This document shows positions 1,491 through 7,819 of a DNA stretch of 7,819 nt, piece after piece. Each line of letters opens with the position of its first letter. Within the stretch, counting starts at the first letter, position 1. This DNA is from Caldifarciminota bacterium (lineage in GTDB: Bacteria; WOR-3; Hydrothermia; WGAB01), in NCBI GenBank assembly GCA_015489295.1, contig WGAB01000225.1, positions 1 through 7,819 on the forward strand, in the 5' to 3' direction. The notes under the pieces are model-generated. The model ran no database searches. It saw nothing but the letters and a program-made list of their open reading frames with translations, and was not told the DNA's origin. Made by a program: the position numbers and the translations under genes.

Positions 1491-1548
1491 GAGGGGTTCT
1501 CCTGCGCCCGATCCCGTCTTCGGGGATGGCTCCGGATTCGCATCGGCC

Positions 1549-1554
1549 TATAAT
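1549..1554 (+). promoter_or_regulatory. -10 box of the mcmA operon, probable leaderless transcript
   Basis: A perfect TATAAT lies 7 bases before the ATG at 1562. The usual start site, about 7 bases after the -10 box, would fall at or next to the A of the ATG. No purine-rich ribosome binding site precedes this ATG, in contrast to every other gene in the window, which fits a leaderless mRNA. No convincing -35 hexamer is seen at 16-18 bases, so recognition would rest on the -10 box or on an activator. Confidence 0.6.
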
Positions 1555-1561
1555 TAACGCT

Positions 1562-3157
1562 ATGAACGCCAACGACAAGGAACGGCAAAGTCCCTCCGGC
1601 ATTCCCATCCGGGAGGTGTATCGGCCGGAAGACCTGGCTGACCTGGATTACCGGCGCGACCTGGGAGACCCCGGCGAATATCCCTTTACGCGGGGGGTGT
1701 ACCCTGGCATGTACCGCCGACGGCTCTGGACCATGCGCCAGTATGCCGGGTTCGGCTCCGCACACCAAACCAACCAGCGGTTCCGTTACCTCCTCTCCCT
1801 GGGCCAAACCGGGCTTTCCGTGGCCTTTGACCTGCCCACCCAGCTGGGCTACGACTCCGACCATCCCCTGGCGGAAGGCGAGGTGGGCCGCACCGGCGTT
1901 GCGATTTCTACGGTGGAAGACCTGGAAATCGTGTTCCAGGGCATTCCGCTGGACCGGGTGTCCACCTCCATGACCATCAACGCCACGGCCCCGATCCTTT
2001 TGGCCATGTACATCTTAGTGGCCGAGAAGCAGGGGGTTTCCCGCCAGGAACTCCGGGGCACGGTGCAAAACGACATCCTCAAGGAATTCGCCGCCCGGGG
2101 CAACTACATCTATCCCGTGGACCCCTCCATGAAACTTGTGGGTGACCTCATTGAGTTCTGTGCCCGGGAGATGCCCAAGTGGAACCCGATTTCCATTTCC
2201 GGGTACCATTACCGCGAGGCCGGGGCCACCGCCGTGCAGGAGGTGGCCTTCACCTTAGCCGATGGCAAGGCCTATATCCAGGAGGTGCTACAGCGGGGCC
2301 TGGACCTGGACCAATTTGCGCCCCGGCTTTCCTTTTTCTTCGCCGCCCACAGTTACTTTTTTGAGGAGATCGCCAAGTTCCGGGCCGCCCGGCGCCTCTG
2401 GGCCCGCATGCTGCGGGAGGACTTCGGCGCCCGCAATCCCAAGTCCTGGCGCCTGCGGTTCCACACCCAAACCGGCGGTGTCACCCTGACTTCCATCGAA
2501 CCCCTGAACAATGTGGTGCGGGTCACCCTCCAGGCCCTGGCGGCGGTGCTCGGCGGCACCCAATCGTTGCACACCAACGCCTACGACGAGGCCCTGGCTC
2601 TGCCCACCGCCGAATCCGCCAAACTGGCCCTCCGCACCCAACAGATCATTGGCTACGAGTCCGGCGTGCCCGACACGGCCGATCCCCTGGCGGGTTCCTA
2701 CTTCGTGGAATCCCTCACCCGGGAGGTGGAAAACCGGGTTCGGGCCCTTCTGGAGGAGATCGACGCGAAGGGCGGCGCCGTGGAGGCCGTGAAGCAGGGG
2801 CTCTTTCAGCAGTGGATCGAACAGAGCAGCTACGAGTACCAGAAGCGCTTTGAAGCGGGCGAGGTTGTGGTAGTAGGGGTCAACCGGTTCCAAACCGAAG
2901 GGGCCCGGGAAACCGTGGGCGAACTCCTCAAGATCGACCCCGAGGTGGAACGGGAGCAGATTGAGCGCCTCAAGGCCTACCGCGCCCGCCGGAACTTCTC
3001 GGAAACGGCCCAGGCTCTGCGGGACCTCCGGCGCGCCGCAGAGGGCAACACCGAGAACCTCATGCCTTACATCCTGAACGCCCTGCGCGCCCAGGCCACC
3101 CTGGGCGAAATCTCCGATACCCTCCGGGAGGTGTACGGTGAGTACCGGGAAACCTGA
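1562..3157 (+). CDS. mcmA1: Methylmalonyl-CoA mutase, catalytic (large) subunit without B12 domain
   Basis: Adenosylcobalamin-dependent interconversion of (R)-methylmalonyl-CoA and succinyl-CoA in propionyl-CoA metabolism. The 531 residues form the substrate-binding TIM barrel only; the protein ends without a cobalamin-binding DxHxxG domain, so it is the large subunit of the split type. Key stretches are LWTMRQYAGFG (55-65), FDLPTQLGYDSD (89-100), QNDILKEF (169-176), NYIYP (181-185) and SISGYH (211-216). With a constant offset of 28, P. shermanii Tyr89, Arg207, Tyr243 and His244 fall on Tyr61, Arg179, Tyr215 and His216. The Tyr/Arg pair marks methylmalonyl-CoA specificity; isobutyryl-CoA mutases carry Phe/Gln. 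One mild oddity is Gly49 where the family usually has Thr (YPTMY). I chose ATG 1562 over an upstream ATG at 1526 because the latter precedes the -10 box. The last 20 bases overlap the epimerase gene, which supplies the substrate epimer. The small subunit and the MeaB-type chaperone must be elsewhere in the genome. Confidence 0.93.
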   Translation: MNANDKERQSPSGIPIREVYRPEDLADLDYRRDLGDPGEYPFTRGVYPGMYRRRLWTMRQYAGFGSAHQTNQRFRYLLSLGQTGLSVAFDLPTQLGYDSDHPLAEGEVGRTGVAISTVEDLEIVFQGIPLDRVSTSMTINATAPILLAMYILVAEKQGVSRQELRGTVQNDILKEFAARGNYIYPVDPSMKLVGDLIEFCAREMPKWNPISISGYHYREAGATAVQEVAFTLADGKAYIQEVLQRGLDLDQFAPRLSFFFAAHSYFFEEIAKFRAARRLWARMLREDFGARNPKSWRLRFHTQTGGVTLTSIEPLNNVVRVTLQALAAVLGGTQSLHTNAYDEALALPTAESAKLALRTQQIIGYESGVPDTADPLAGSYFVESLTREVENRVRALLEEIDAKGGAVEAVKQGLFQQWIEQSSYEYQKRFEAGEVVVVGVNRFQTEGARETVGELLKIDPEVEREQIERLKAYRARRNFSETAQALRDLRRAAEGNTENLMPYILNALRAQATLGEISDTLREVYGEYRET

Positions 3158-3560
3158 GATCCGTTTGCACCATGTGGGCATTGCGGTGCGCGACCTGGAG
3201 GCCGCGGTGCGACGGTTCCAGCAGGTGCTGGGCCTGGAGGAGGTGGAATACGAAGATCTGCCTGAGCGCGGCCTGCGGGTGGCCGTGTTCCGGCTGGGCC
3301 CGGTGCGGCTGGAACTCGTGAGCCCTACCCGGCCGGGCACCGCCCTGGACCGGTTCCTCGAAAAACGGGGCGATGGCCTTCACCACCTCTCCTTCAGCGT
3401 AACCCAGTGGAACCACCTGATGGCCCGCCTCCAGCAGGCCGGCGTCCGGATCGTAGACGGCCCCCGGCCCGGGGCCTTTTCCCCGCGGGTAATCTTCACG
3501 GATCCCCGGGATACCGGCCGCGTGCTGATGGAGTTCATGGAGATGCCGGAGGAACCATGA
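3138..3560 (+). CDS. mce: Methylmalonyl-CoA epimerase
   Basis: Converts (S)-methylmalonyl-CoA from propionyl-CoA carboxylase into the (R) epimer used by the mutase. The 140 residues are the usual length for this vicinal-oxygen-chelate metalloenzyme, made of two beta-alpha-beta-beta-beta modules. The first opens with LHHVGIAV (10-17, metal ligand His12) and the second with GLHHLSFSV (80-88, His pair 82-83). The C-terminal VLMEFMEM (129-136) contains Glu132, the expected last metal ligand. RLELVSP (57-63) fits the family pattern. The start is GTG at 3138, inside the end of the mutase gene, with GGGAGG six bases upstream; the overlap suggests translational coupling. Its stop overlaps the next start as ATGA. 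Pairing with the mutase makes the assignment firm against other VOC proteins such as glyoxalase I. Confidence 0.92.
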   Translation: MSTGKPEIRLHHVGIAVRDLEAAVRRFQQVLGLEEVEYEDLPERGLRVAVFRLGPVRLELVSPTRPGTALDRFLEKRGDGLHHLSFSVTQWNHLMARLQQAGVRIVDGPRPGAFSPRVIFTDPRDTGRVLMEFMEMPEEP

Positions 3561-4957
3561 CCTGGCTCCTGGCCCTGGTGCTGGCTTACCAGTCGGTGCC
3601 GGTCCCTGCGCTTTCGTACCAGGGGCAGCATTACCTGACGCCACGGGCGTTGATCCGGGCGTTCCATTTTCGGCATCAGGGCAAAGGGGTTTATCGCAGG
3701 GGAGGCCACCAGGTCGCCTTCGGCACCCACAAAATCTGGGTCGACGGCAAGGCGTTCCGCGTCAGGAGCCATCGGTTTCCCCAGGAGGGCCTGGCCTACG
3801 AGGCCCGCAGTCTGGAACCGGCGGTGAGCCGGTGGTCGGACCGACAGGCCTACTGGGACCTGGAGAAAAAACGCTTCATCCTGTCCCGGTACCGGCCCAG
3901 CATCCAGAAAATCCGGGCCTCGGGCACGGAAAACACCTGTACCCTGGAAATCCAGCACAACCGCGATCTTCGGCCCCGGGTCAGCCTTCGGGGCGACACC
4001 CTTCGCCTCCGGGTTCCCCGGGGGTTTTATGCCGGTCCCCTTCCCAAGGTTCCCTCCTGGCTCCGCACGGTACAGGTCGGCCACACGCTTCGCGGTTTCC
4101 TGTGGGACCTGGTGGGCGCGGCCGAGGCCCGGGTGGAAACGCCGAGGCCCGGCCAAAGCGTGGTCCGGATCTCCCGGCGCCCCTCTGCGCCGGCACCGCC
4201 TGCCGCGGGTCCGACCCCTGTCCTCAAAACGGCACCCCGGGACCACTGGGTGGTGGTCATCGATCCCGGCCACGGGGGCAAGGATCCGGGGGCCATCGGC
4301 CGTCGGGGTACCCGGGAAAAGGACATTACCCTGGCCGTGGCCCGGCGGCTGAAGCGCATCCTGGAGGCCTCGGGCAAGGTGCGCGTGATCCTCACGCGGG
4401 ACCGCGACCGGTTTATCACCCTGGGCGAACGCGCCCGAATCGCCAACCGGGCCCATGCCGATCTCTTCGTGTCGCTGCACTGCAACAAGGCCCGAAGCCG
4501 GAGCGCCAAGGGCGCCGAAACCTACTTCCTTTCGGCGGCCCGCACCCAATGGGAACGGGCCGTGGCCAACCTGGAAAACGGCGCCCTGCGGTTTGAGGGG
4601 GTCCAGCCCCCGGATACCACCGGCGACCTCGTGGCCTATGTGCTCTCGGACATGGCCCAGGCCCAGTTTCTCAAGGAGTCGCAGCAACTGGCTCTGGCGG
4701 TGCAAACCCAGCTGGCCCGGGCCCTGAACCTGCGCGACCGGGGGGTGAAACAGGCCGGTTTCTATGTGCTCACCGGCGCCTATATGCCCGCCATCCTTGT
4801 GGAAATGGGCTTTCTTTCCAACCGCCAGGAAGAGAACCTGCTGCGCCAGGGCTGGTACCAGGAAAAACTGGCCAAGGCCATCGCCCGGGGCATCCTCAAC
4901 TTCCTCCGGCAGCGGAGCACCCTGAGCGCCACCGGCGCCCGCACCCCCGGAGGTTGA
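3557..4957 (+). CDS. Exported N-acetylmuramoyl-L-alanine amidase (Amidase_3)
   Basis: Zinc amidase that cuts the bond between N-acetylmuramic acid and L-alanine in peptidoglycan, used in cell separation and wall turnover. The 466 residues begin with a hydrophobic stretch (3-13) that looks like a short signal peptide, though it lacks basic residues. A region at about 21-90 resembles the copper amine oxidase N-terminal-like substrate/wall-binding fold. About 116-205 is AMIN-like (opening IQKIRAS), the module that targets amidases to peptidoglycan or septa. After a Pro/Ala linker (about 208-220) the catalytic domain starts with VVVIDPGHGGKDPGA. Zinc ligands are His239, Glu254 (REKD) and His308 (SLHCN), and the catalytic Glu416 lies in LVEMGFLSN, so it should be active. 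The ATG overlaps the epimerase stop and is preceded by GGAGGA. The domain order matches AmiA/B/C-like enzymes of many bacteria, but no specific symbol can be justified. Confidence 0.9.
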   Translation: MTWLLALVLAYQSVPVPALSYQGQHYLTPRALIRAFHFRHQGKGVYRRGGHQVAFGTHKIWVDGKAFRVRSHRFPQEGLAYEARSLEPAVSRWSDRQAYWDLEKKRFILSRYRPSIQKIRASGTENTCTLEIQHNRDLRPRVSLRGDTLRLRVPRGFYAGPLPKVPSWLRTVQVGHTLRGFLWDLVGAAEARVETPRPGQSVVRISRRPSAPAPPAAGPTPVLKTAPRDHWVVVIDPGHGGKDPGAIGRRGTREKDITLAVARRLKRILEASGKVRVILTRDRDRFITLGERARIANRAHADLFVSLHCNKARSRSAKGAETYFLSAARTQWERAVANLENGALRFEGVQPPDTTGDLVAYVLSDMAQAQFLKESQQLALAVQTQLARALNLRDRGVKQAGFYVLTGAYMPAILVEMGFLSNRQEENLLRQGWYQEKLAKAIARGILNFLRQRSTLSATGARTPGG

Positions 4958-4960
4958 CCC

Positions 4961-5947
4961 ATGGGCCGACGCCGCTGGCAAACCCTGATCAGCCTGCTCA
5001 TCAGCCTGGTGGCCCTGTTCCTGGCTTTCCGGGGGCTCAACTGGCAAACGCTGGCCCACGTGCTGCGGCAGGGCAACGCTGGCTGGATGATGGTGGCCAC
5101 CCTGTTCCACGCCCTGAGTTACCTGCCCCGGGGAAGCCGCTGGCAACAGATGCTTTCGCCGGTAAAGCGTTTGCCGTGGACCCCGGTGTTCGGAGCCCTC
5201 AGCATTGGCTTCTTCGCCAACAACGTGCTGCCTGCCCGGCTCGGGGAAATTGCCCGCGCCCTGGTGCTGGGCAGCCGCACCGGGCTTTCCCGGAGCGCCG
5301 CCCTTTCCTCGGTGCTCCTGGAGCGCTTCTTTGACGGCGCAGCCACCGTGCTTTTGGCATTCCTGGCGCTGCCCCTGATTCCCCTGCCCCGGATGGTCAA
5401 ATCGGTGCTCTGGATCAGCGCCCTGGTGTTCCTCGGGGTTTTCCCGGCCTACTATGTGCTGCATCTCTGGCGGGCTTCCATCAAGCGCTGGATGTTTCGC
5501 ACCCTGGACCGGGCCCCGGAACGCTGGGCCGGCCTCCTGAAGCACATTCTGGAGGGCCTGGCCCGGGGCATGGACGTGCTCCGCACACCCCGCGCCCTTC
5601 TCTGGACCACGGCCCAAACCCTGTTGATCTGGCTGCTGGAGGCCGTGAGTTACTACGCCGCGCTCCGGGCCTTCCATGTGCCCGCAACCATCCCGCTGAC
5701 CCTCCTGGCCATGGTGGCCATCAACCTGAGCGTGATGATCCCCTCGGCCCCGGGATACATCGGCGTGTTCGAGTACGCCTGCATCCTGGCCCTGGTGCCC
5801 TTCGGCATCGCCCGAGAGGTGGCCCTCTCCTTTGCGATCCTGTCGCACGCCATCCGCTATGTGGTGCCCAATATCCTGGGCCTCGCCTTTTTGTGGAAAT
5901 GGGGCCTGAGTTTTGCCAAGATCCAGGCCCTGGATCAGGAGGCATAG
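4961..5947 (+). CDS. Lysylphosphatidylglycerol synthase TM-region / UPF0104 family membrane protein
   Basis: Integral membrane protein of 328 residues with roughly eight hydrophobic segments, the first at about 8-24 after a basic MGRRRW start (positive-inside). Family motifs are clear: RGSRWQQML (57-65), NNVLPARLGE (87-96), LLERFFDG (119-126) and PSAPGYIGVFEYA (261-273). This family (YbhN, AglD and the flippase half of MprF) is linked to lipid or glycolipid translocation and envelope modification. The cytosolic lysyl-transferase domain of MprF is absent, so this is the stand-alone membrane form and aminoacyl-lipid synthesis should not be assumed. It starts 3 bases after the amidase stop with GGAGG upstream, consistent with an envelope role beside the amidase. 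The actual substrate is unknown. Confidence 0.88.
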   Translation: MGRRRWQTLISLLISLVALFLAFRGLNWQTLAHVLRQGNAGWMMVATLFHALSYLPRGSRWQQMLSPVKRLPWTPVFGALSIGFFANNVLPARLGEIARALVLGSRTGLSRSAALSSVLLERFFDGAATVLLAFLALPLIPLPRMVKSVLWISALVFLGVFPAYYVLHLWRASIKRWMFRTLDRAPERWAGLLKHILEGLARGMDVLRTPRALLWTTAQTLLIWLLEAVSYYAALRAFHVPATIPLTLLAMVAINLSVMIPSAPGYIGVFEYACILALVPFGIAREVALSFAILSHAIRYVVPNILGLAFLWKWGLSFAKIQALDQEA

Positions 5948-7819
5948 ATGCCCCTGCGAGCCATCCGGGTGCACCACGCCTGCTTCGTGTGCGGAGCCGA
6001 CCTGCCGCTGGAACGCTTCATCAGCGGCCTGCCCTGTAAAAAATGCGAGGACAGAGCCCCTCTGGTGCGCCAGGCTTCCCGGCCACCCCGGGTGGTGGAA
6101 CTCCTGGGCCGGGTGTACCAGCGGATCCACCGGGCTCCCCTGCCCCGGGTGTGGATCCCCTGGATCTCGGCGGTGGCGGCCCGCGAATCCCTGCAGATCC
6201 CCTGGTGGGACCCCTACCGGCCGCTGGACCTTTTCCTGCTCCTGGCCGGCACCAGCAAACGGCCTGTGGTGCTCGTCACCCCGGAAACGGAGTTCGCCCG
6301 AATCCATCAGGGCCTGCAGCACCACCGGAAAACCCCGATCACCCAGCGCCTGCCCGGCGAACAGGAGGTCCTGGTGACCACGCCCGACCGCCTTGCCCAG
6401 ATGGCAAACCTTCACCGCTTTTCGGGGTTCCTCCTGTGGCTCCATCCGGAGGCCCGGCCGAAACGGGACCTTTTCCCCTCGGCCACCCTGATGGTGGCCG
6501 AACGCCGGTTCCCCCACGTGCATCCCCACGGCTTCCAGGGCTGGCTCCGCCCCGGTGAGATGCCAGAAACCCCGGAAGCCCGGGTACTGGAGGTGCCTGT
6601 ATTGCGGGGCACGCTATCGGGCATCACCCCGCAGCAACTCCTGGAAATCCTGTTCCTGCTTTTGCCCTATCTCCCGGCAGAGCTCCAGGAGCTGGTGGTA
6701 TCCCTGTATCGATCCGAGGCCCTGGATTCGGCCCGGGCCCAGGTGCTGCGGGAAGCCGTGAATCAGGCCCTGGATCACCACGGACTCCGTTCGATGCTGG
6801 AAAACCTGGGCATGCTCCACCGGCTCCACCTGCAGGTTCCCGATCTCCAGGCCCTGCGAGAACAACTGGAACAGGCCGAGCACCCGGCGCAACGCGGTCC
6901 GATTTATCTCCTGGAACCTCCGTTTGCGCGGGGGCGCTACTGGGTGCATCGGGGGTTCCTGTCCCATCCCCCACCCCTTCGGCAACGCCCTGCCCTGGGG
7001 CCCCTGAAGGACACCGCCACCCTCCTGGTCCTGCTGGGGACCGCGCCAGACCTGCGGGATCTGGGGTTCCGGAATCTCTGGCGCCGCCAGAGCCGGGGAC
7101 TGGAACTGCTGGAAGGCGTGGGCACGCTGGGCCCGGTTACCCTGGTTCATCTGCCCCCGCTGTTTCGGTGGATGGACAAGCACCTATATCCGGATGCGGC
7201 TCTGCTTCAGGCTCTGCGGGGCCTTGCCCGCCGGTACCCGAGGATCACCGTGATGGCCTCCGAACCCCTGAAGCTCCAGGGGATCCTCACCCTCTTTGCC
7301 CTGGGCCACCTGTGGAACCGGCGCCGCCTGGTGCTGTACTCGGACTTCGCCCAGGGCCCGCTGCGCCAGCTGGAGCCCAAGGAGATCCAGGAGGCTTTTC
7401 ACCGCTGGCTCCAGCATCACATCGTGTTTGTGGAGCGACGCCAGCAACTGGCCCGCACAGGCATCACCCCCACGCCTGCCTCCTGGGTGCAGGAGCTGTC
7501 CCTGGACCTGGTCCGGCGCCCCTTAGAGCACCGGGAACCCCGAAAGTTGGCCCTGGTCACCGTTGACGGCTTGACCCTGCAGATCCCTGTGCCCGCCGAC
7601 CTTCCTGAGGACGAGGTGGAAACACGGCTCCGCGAGGAGAGCCGCCTGGAGGTGGAACCCACCGAGGAATCGGTACCCCCTCCGGCGCCGGCGAGCCCGG
7701 GGCTGTTCCTGCGCACCGGGGACGTGGCCGACCTCCAGACCCTGCAGACCCTGCTCCACGAACTCTGGCGGGCGGGCCTCATCAGCCATCCCCACCGGGC
7801 GGTGCCGCTGGTGGCCTAT
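5948..7819 (+). CDS. Putative catalytically dead reverse gyrase-like protein (3' end outside window)
   Basis: The frame is open for 624 codons to the window edge with no stop. ATG immediately follows the previous stop (TAGATG), with AGGAGG five bases upstream. Residues 9-33 form a four-Cys zinc finger (Cys12, 15, 30, 33; HHACFVCG, then ER and GLPCKKC) very like the N-terminal finger of bacterial reverse gyrases. Collinear but worn matches follow. About 105-168 resembles helicase lobe 1 (RPVVLVTPETE, VLVTTPDRL), but Walker A is absent and the acidic DDVD/DEAD box reads LHPE. About 318-338 (IYLLEPPFA) fits the IVESPTKA strand, with Glu323 kept. LGTAPDLRDL (363-372) fits the ATxGHxxDL motif. ITVMASEPLKLQG (433-445) sits where DPDxEGE should be. 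TPASWVQEL (509-517) fits the RVQS region and GLISHPHR (610-617) the GLITYHRT active site, His replacing Tyr. Before the TOPRIM-like start there are about 300 residues instead of about 500. I infer a reverse gyrase descendant without helicase or topoisomerase activity. Alternatives are an unrelated zinc-finger protein or a PriA-like primosome relic. It is the last visible gene of the operon. Confidence 0.55.
   Translation, partial: MPLRAIRVHHACFVCGADLPLERFISGLPCKKCEDRAPLVRQASRPPRVVELLGRVYQRIHRAPLPRVWIPWISAVAARESLQIPWWDPYRPLDLFLLLAGTSKRPVVLVTPETEFARIHQGLQHHRKTPITQRLPGEQEVLVTTPDRLAQMANLHRFSGFLLWLHPEARPKRDLFPSATLMVAERRFPHVHPHGFQGWLRPGEMPETPEARVLEVPVLRGTLSGITPQQLLEILFLLLPYLPAELQELVVSLYRSEALDSARAQVLREAVNQALDHHGLRSMLENLGMLHRLHLQVPDLQALREQLEQAEHPAQRGPIYLLEPPFARGRYWVHRGFLSHPPPLRQRPALGPLKDTATLLVLLGTAPDLRDLGFRNLWRRQSRGLELLEGVGTLGPVTLVHLPPLFRWMDKHLYPDAALLQALRGLARRYPRITVMASEPLKLQGILTLFALGHLWNRRRLVLYSDFAQGPLRQLEPKEIQEAFHRWLQHHIVFVERRQQLARTGITPTPASWVQELSLDLVRRPLEHREPRKLALVTVDGLTLQIPVPADLPEDEVETRLREESRLEVEPTEESVPPPAPASPGLFLRTGDVADLQTLQTLLHELWRAGLISHPHRAVPLVAY

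Follow-up and report, generated by a model that had tools for sequence, protein, structure and literature searches.

Reverse gyrase is the marker protein of extreme-heat life, and it is still debated whether it serves the cell by supercoiling DNA or by protecting it. The locus described here raises the question of what such an enzyme becomes once its catalytic motifs are gone. It lies at the end of the window, by which we mean the whole stretch of 7,819 nucleotides that was analyzed, from a bacterium of the WOR-3 phylum, and a first-pass annotation made from the letters alone had proposed that its gene encodes an inactivated reverse gyrase that is kept as an intact protein. Based on comparisons of its sequence with those of relatives and of working reverse gyrases, the protein is almost certainly a dead, conserved relative of reverse gyrase; what it is kept for can be said with less assurance. 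A conserved non-catalytic version of this enzyme would be a natural experiment on supercoiling versus protection, and reverse-gyrase-like matches need a motif check before being taken as a sign of hyperthermophily.

The gene and its neighbors in the window

The gene for the pseudoenzyme, which almost certainly derives from reverse gyrase, is on the plus strand at 5948..7819, where ATG 5948 opens a frame of 624 codons with no stop before the window end. The intact frame of the first-pass annotation is thus real, and proved to be the first 624 codons of a longer gene that runs past the window and had been seen truncated: the full database copy, on a contig of 20,437 bases, has 811 aa, and the window covers residues 1-624, or 77% of the protein. 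The good ribosome-binding site that had been reported was found as well, as AGGAGG at 5937..5942 (plus strand), within the 3' end of the upstream gene, whose TAG (5945-5947) abuts the ATG. That upstream gene (4961..5947, plus strand) encodes an LPG_synthase_TM membrane protein (PF03706), and it adjoins the pseudoenzyme gene on its 5' side in the relatives L001 and G056 also. The rest of the window holds a pyrimidine nucleoside phosphorylase gene on the minus strand (120-1421) and, on the plus strand, genes for methylmalonyl-CoA mutase (1526-3157), a glyoxalase-family protein (3138-3560) and an N-acetylmuramoyl-L-alanine amidase (within 3407-4957). An antisense frame of 1,049 codons (3380-6529, minus strand) spans four plus-strand genes; because relatives conserve the plus-strand frame at 5948, it is most likely a side effect of high G+C.

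Ancestry and loss of catalytic motifs

A six-member family profile was aligned by hhalign to 11 WOR-3 reverse gyrases with a probability of 98.7, an E of 1.6e-16 and a score of 143.3, against 24.6 for the reversed profile and at most 23.5 for 20 column shuffles. Significant signal came from residues 1-60 (E 5e-9), 560-760 (E 2e-16), 700-811 (E 1e-4) and 420-600 (E 1.7e-4), whereas segments 46-420, 350-560 and 420-570, each taken alone, gave no significant profile signal against reverse gyrase. Homology to reverse gyrase is beyond reasonable doubt for the zinc finger and the topoisomerase C-half, and on these alignments the secure homologous part is the tyrosine-site region and everything after it; residues 560-624 (7625..7819, plus strand) are the start of the strongest homology to the topoisomerase half, which covers 560-760 of the full protein. 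The first-pass annotation had read the complete order of reverse gyrase in the frame, and of that order the N-terminal zinc finger and the tyrosine region stood, but the helicase-like and TOPRIM-like stretches proved to have no profile signal of their own. Because those segments alone lack significant signal, their labels denote order only, i.e., they rest on collinearity, and the homology of the helicase part (residues 91-350, 6218..6997, plus strand, collinear with the helicase domains and likewise without independent profile signal) falls short of proof. The four cysteines of the zinc-finger core, C12-x2-C15 and C30-x2-C33 (5981..6046, plus strand), are conserved in all five sequences possessing the N-terminal end, and matches to Pfam zf_Rg stayed below the curated cut-off throughout, at E 2.3e-3 for the window protein and as low as 2.6e-5 among relatives.

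The other possible source of such a C-half, topoisomerase I, was not favored, as both the family profile and the tree side with reverse gyrase. At E<1e-3 the profile found 20 of 20 reverse gyrases and neither of two topoisomerase I proteins (in G001 and G056). A C-half tree built from 30 rows and 330 columns united the full-length members and a divergent short type, described below, in one clade (100/99) whose stem measured 2.17 changes per column; topoisomerase I, represented by two rows among generally long branches, fell outside it. Within the clade the short type was nested in the full type, a placement that long-branch attraction may have caused. Together, hhalign, profile and tree point to ancestry shared with reverse gyrase rather than with topoisomerase I.

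None of this makes the family reverse gyrases by the established model. Scores against TIGR01054, whose cut-off is 471.7 bits, were 17.8 for P0001, 29.3 for P0003 and 15.4 for both P0002 and P0004, with no match listed for P0005, and even the G056 member (62.9 bits, E 1.2e-17; 51.5 bits in the whole-genome search) fell under the cut-off. The profile search that had been set beforehand as a check gave meaningful signals for reverse gyrase and topoisomerase IA; the latter (PF01131) is a weak likeness, matched over residues 675-726 at E 0.0079 and 15.7 bits at best, below its cut-off of 35.1, and the two topoisomerase I proteins are, as noted, missed by the family profile. Matches to other families (DUF1835, C1_1 and ant_ant_sig) had E values of 0.045 or worse, and the DUF1835 match (residues 461-501, E 0.045) was taken as chance. 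A PDB sequence search returned only two matches, to other proteins, at E 0.73 and 0.87.

That nearly every catalytic motif is replaced, as the annotation had stated, was borne out by pattern counts, which are independent of alignment. Walker A (TG.GK[TS]), the TOPRIM Glu, DxDxEGE, AGRVQ and the Y-x-RTDS catalytic tyrosine motif were each present in 11 of 11 WOR-3 reverse gyrases and in none of six family members (for Walker A, none of the five with the region, which P0005 lacks). The pattern RR.ADR, found in one of six members, was kept out of the verdict, and the patterns for motif II, motif VI and ASLGH, which were incomplete on true reverse gyrases (6, 9 and 9 of 11), were not relied on. 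Residues 88-93 (6209..6226, plus strand), in a part where the alignment is weak, are collinear with Walker A and have P, T, S or I at the Lys position. The catalytic tyrosine place is occupied by H614 (codon 7787..7789, plus strand), the aligned residue being His in P0001-P0005 and Thr in G056; nearby, R617 is common to P0001-P0005 and is Gln in G056, and position 616 is H, Y or W. Across the C-half there are 69 near-invariant reverse gyrase columns (at least 18 of 20 reverse gyrases, with all six family pieces covering the column), of which the family retains 20 (in five or six of the pieces), with 42 replaced and 7 deleted. From these losses we infer that catalytic activity is gone.

What has been conserved includes a block in the TOPRIM place, residues 354-440 (7007..7267, plus strand), which is missing the catalytic TOPRIM motifs and reads DT.TLL...P...DLGF..LW.R...G....EG.G.LGP.TL and on. 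Identity between the window and G056 proteins is 45% over residues 351-460, a value topped only at the zinc-finger end (48% for residues 1-45), and 33% over the 606 codons compared.

Relatives and selection on the frame

A search of about 5.8 billion proteins, in which the best 7,998 word-sharing candidates were scored, produced five matches at E 0.01, including the window protein itself, the other four being 56-60% identical; P0005 is a 601-aa partial sequence without the N-terminal part. Two peptide patterns of this close group, run across 84,980 species genomes, led to a single locus, L001, which belongs to a metagenome-assembled genome of WOR-3 (stated contig coverage 1.8); its protein is identical to P0004, a cluster of 8 members, at all but 10 of 811 residues. 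Among 147 genomes of the WOR-3 phylum, the full type was present in G001, which contains L001, and in G056, whose member has 805 aa and about 30% identity to the window protein. The profile search of these genomes also uncovered the short type, a protein of 628 aa in G045, which was recovered at E 1.9e-10 by a profile built without it. It is unmatched by the reverse gyrase model and linked to it only via the full type. The 628-aa protein is P0007 in the protein collection, and because a partial relative there, P0008, is 86% identical, we count the short type as likewise conserved; neither of the two has the zinc finger, P0008 being the partial one. The gene in G045 (L024:1695-3578) is flanked by a glycosyltransferase gene on one side and a further open frame on the other, and its product is devoid of the motifs as well as of the zinc finger. 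A fourth genome in the first profile search, G100, matched over residues 9-64 only, in a frame of 1,132 codons. When the profile was enlarged by G056 and G045, 22 of the 147 genomes matched, the other 19 in different frames (469-1201 codons) and 17 of these over the topoisomerase part. Carriage by a virus, phage or plasmid was rejected, as viral contigs (19 pattern matches, 0 confirmed), PHROGs (four proteins, nothing at E 0.1) and plasmid records (no P0001 match at E 1e-3) were all negative.

The first-pass annotation had preferred a pseudoenzyme under selection to a decaying pseudogene, and the relatives favor the same choice. Frames of 805-812 codons are open in five full-length members that are 29-72% identical to one another. 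Over 624 codons, the window and L001 differ at 31, 26 and 51% of codon positions 1, 2 and 3, with 57% amino-acid identity and no stops, whereas 500 simulated runs of random change with an equal number of changes left an average identity of 38% (maximum 43.6%) and an average of 10.7 stops, never fewer than 3. The NG86 dN/dS for this pair, proposed earlier as a gauge of decay, was 0.41 and not 1 (0.41-0.54 across the pairs compared), with dS near saturation; maximum-likelihood values were discarded, as they were absurd at saturated dS, for a V-type ATPase control too. Neighboring genes gave lower ratios: between the window and G056 the NG86 value was 0.49 for the pseudoenzyme, 0.32 for LPG_synthase_TM and 0.12 for the mutase, and between the window and L001 it was 0.41 versus 0.16 for a 70-codon piece of LPG_synthase_TM. 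By these measures purifying selection acts on the frame, though less tightly than on its neighbors, and among the full-length relatives there was neither a broken frame nor a dN/dS near 1. True decay within the phylum looks like the opposite. A reverse gyrase in G033 (L058, G033:C22:1500-6000) is broken up over three frames, with ten stops inside the matched pieces (one sub-zero-scoring piece excluded from the count); one can still read its Walker A, TOPRIM Glu and AGRVQ, but not DxDxEGE or the tyrosine motif.

The family has its closest likeness in reverse gyrase itself (TIGR01054, topR/rgy), with a homologous zinc finger and topoisomerase C-half in equal order, and differs from it in having about 810 rather than about 1,150 residues and in being without Walker A, the TOPRIM Glu, DxDxEGE and the Tyr. 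A reverse gyrase that no longer works has a precedent in Thermus thermophilus HB27, but there it is described as a truncated, decayed gene whose HB8 copy is intact (PMC1274311), whereas here an intact family is conserved. The TopR1 and TopR2 of Crenarchaeota resemble the situation in G001 in being two diverged reverse gyrase paralogues per genome, but both crenarchaeal copies are reported to retain the conserved motifs and the tyrosine (PMC6878951); the same evolution survey mentions split, truncated and possibly pseudogenised reverse gyrase sequences. The annotation knew of no described family of this type, and we found none in Pfam, NCBIfam or PHROGs, or in the titles and abstract beginnings listed by literature searches of a collection with few subscription papers. 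A conserved reverse-gyrase pseudoenzyme is apparently undescribed so far.

What the protein may be kept for

Ancestry, the loss of catalytic residues and retention of the frame are taken as established from the sequences. A reverse gyrase paralogue has lost its ATP-binding motifs, the TOPRIM metal-binding motifs and the DNA-cleaving tyrosine, and has shortened to about 810 residues from an original length of about 1,150, while selection kept the protein intact. The nucleic-acid-binding side was most likely retained, so that the zinc finger and the topoisomerase arch would hold DNA—perhaps single-stranded, nicked or branched—that is neither cut nor supercoiled, and the block 354-440, in the former TOPRIM place, probably became a new contact surface. 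Such holding would be akin to the ATP-independent, heat-protective coating of nicks by a true reverse gyrase: that of A. fulgidus is reported to coat nicked DNA and prevent its heat breakage without ATP (PMC11946384, a review; PMC4183072). The analogy is weakened by Sulfolobus, in which reverse gyrase molecules per cell are said to be about 38-fold under the in vitro coating need (PMC4183072).

The charge of the protein bears on DNA holding in both directions. In support, all four sequences tallied have a net positive charge in stretches 1-45, 46-110, 351-470 and 651-750. Against it, net charge is low, at 0 to +12 (per 100 residues, 0.0 to 1.5 in the family versus 0.3 to 2.6 in 11 reverse gyrases), stretches 571-650 (the tyrosine site) and 751-811 (in three of four) are net negative, and the short type has dispensed with the zinc finger. 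Because the C-half columns that are kept (20 of 69) are in 15 cases Pro, Gly, Leu or Ala, they lend no specific support to a persistence of DNA-contacting residues. To the identity and the DNA-holding mechanism taken together we give about an even chance. Somewhat short of that stands a broader proposal, in which a WOR-3 branch may have converted reverse gyrase into a family without catalysis whose new function centers on the former TOPRIM region, a family that persists in genomes where no reverse gyrase was found (G056 and G045) and was whittled down to a 628-residue form without the zinc finger. If true, evolution would here have parted two roles of reverse gyrase, DNA-holding and supercoiling.

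Active relatives are often regulated by pseudoenzymes, and the protein could instead bind or compete with reverse gyrase, topoisomerase I or gyrase, and so tune supercoiling. In keeping with this, G001 carries, alongside the pseudoenzyme, a normal reverse gyrase whose motifs are intact; this reverse gyrase is split over two contigs that have an exact 127-base end in common (L025, L026), with the gene for V-type ATP synthase subunit A directly 5' of it. Because the best match of that subunit among 60 relatives is in G056 (84%), the contig looks native to G001, and G056 looks like a close relative. In G056, however, the three-gene run of the G001 reverse gyrase site is present and no reverse gyrase follows it, and whole-genome searches of the drafts G056 and G045 gave no model match over the cut-off, which of these three genomes was exceeded in G001 only. 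The model's matches in G056 were one topoisomerase-I-like protein, the pseudoenzyme and four to the helicase part only (21-23 bits), and in G045 one topoisomerase-I-like protein and three of 18-26 bits; since neither genome yielded a reverse gyrase, that enzyme would not be an obligatory partner, unless it was missed in the drafts. A gyrase partner is suggested by G056, where the pseudoenzyme gene belongs to a one-strand run of recF, gyrB, a SHOCT/DUF4097 gene, LPG_synthase_TM and the pseudoenzyme (L023:6872-14328), but the gyrB neighborhood is absent from the window. On balance we regard a regulatory partner as rather unlikely.

A role outside DNA metabolism, e.g., as a cytosolic partner of the upstream membrane protein, is less probable again. 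LPG_synthase_TM is directly 5' in all three full-type loci with upstream DNA (the window, L001 and G056), which ties the window to the lineage of the other two, and in two of them its stop and the pseudoenzyme start abut. Adjacency by itself is weak evidence, however; both the zinc finger and the topoisomerase parts are modules for handling nucleic acids, and the short type in G045 follows a glycosyltransferase gene instead. It would be more surprising still, and in our judgment very improbable, for the protein to be an enzyme of a new kind, in which H614 or residue 616 forms a rebuilt active site with the block 354-440. The identity of H614 and R617 in P0001-P0005 and the rank of the block among the best conserved parts of the family would suit this, but G056 replaces the two residues with Thr and Gln, position 616 varies, and no other catalytic family was matched. 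Lastly, the notion of a decaying reverse gyrase pseudogene whose frame has yet to break can point to a dN between the window and G056 of 0.85, against 0.42 for the next gene and 0.20 for the mutase (about twice and four times), but it has scarcely any chance of being right and was rejected on the open frames of five full-length members, a substitution pattern free of the roughly 11 stops that random change would leave, and the contrast with the decayed copy in G033.
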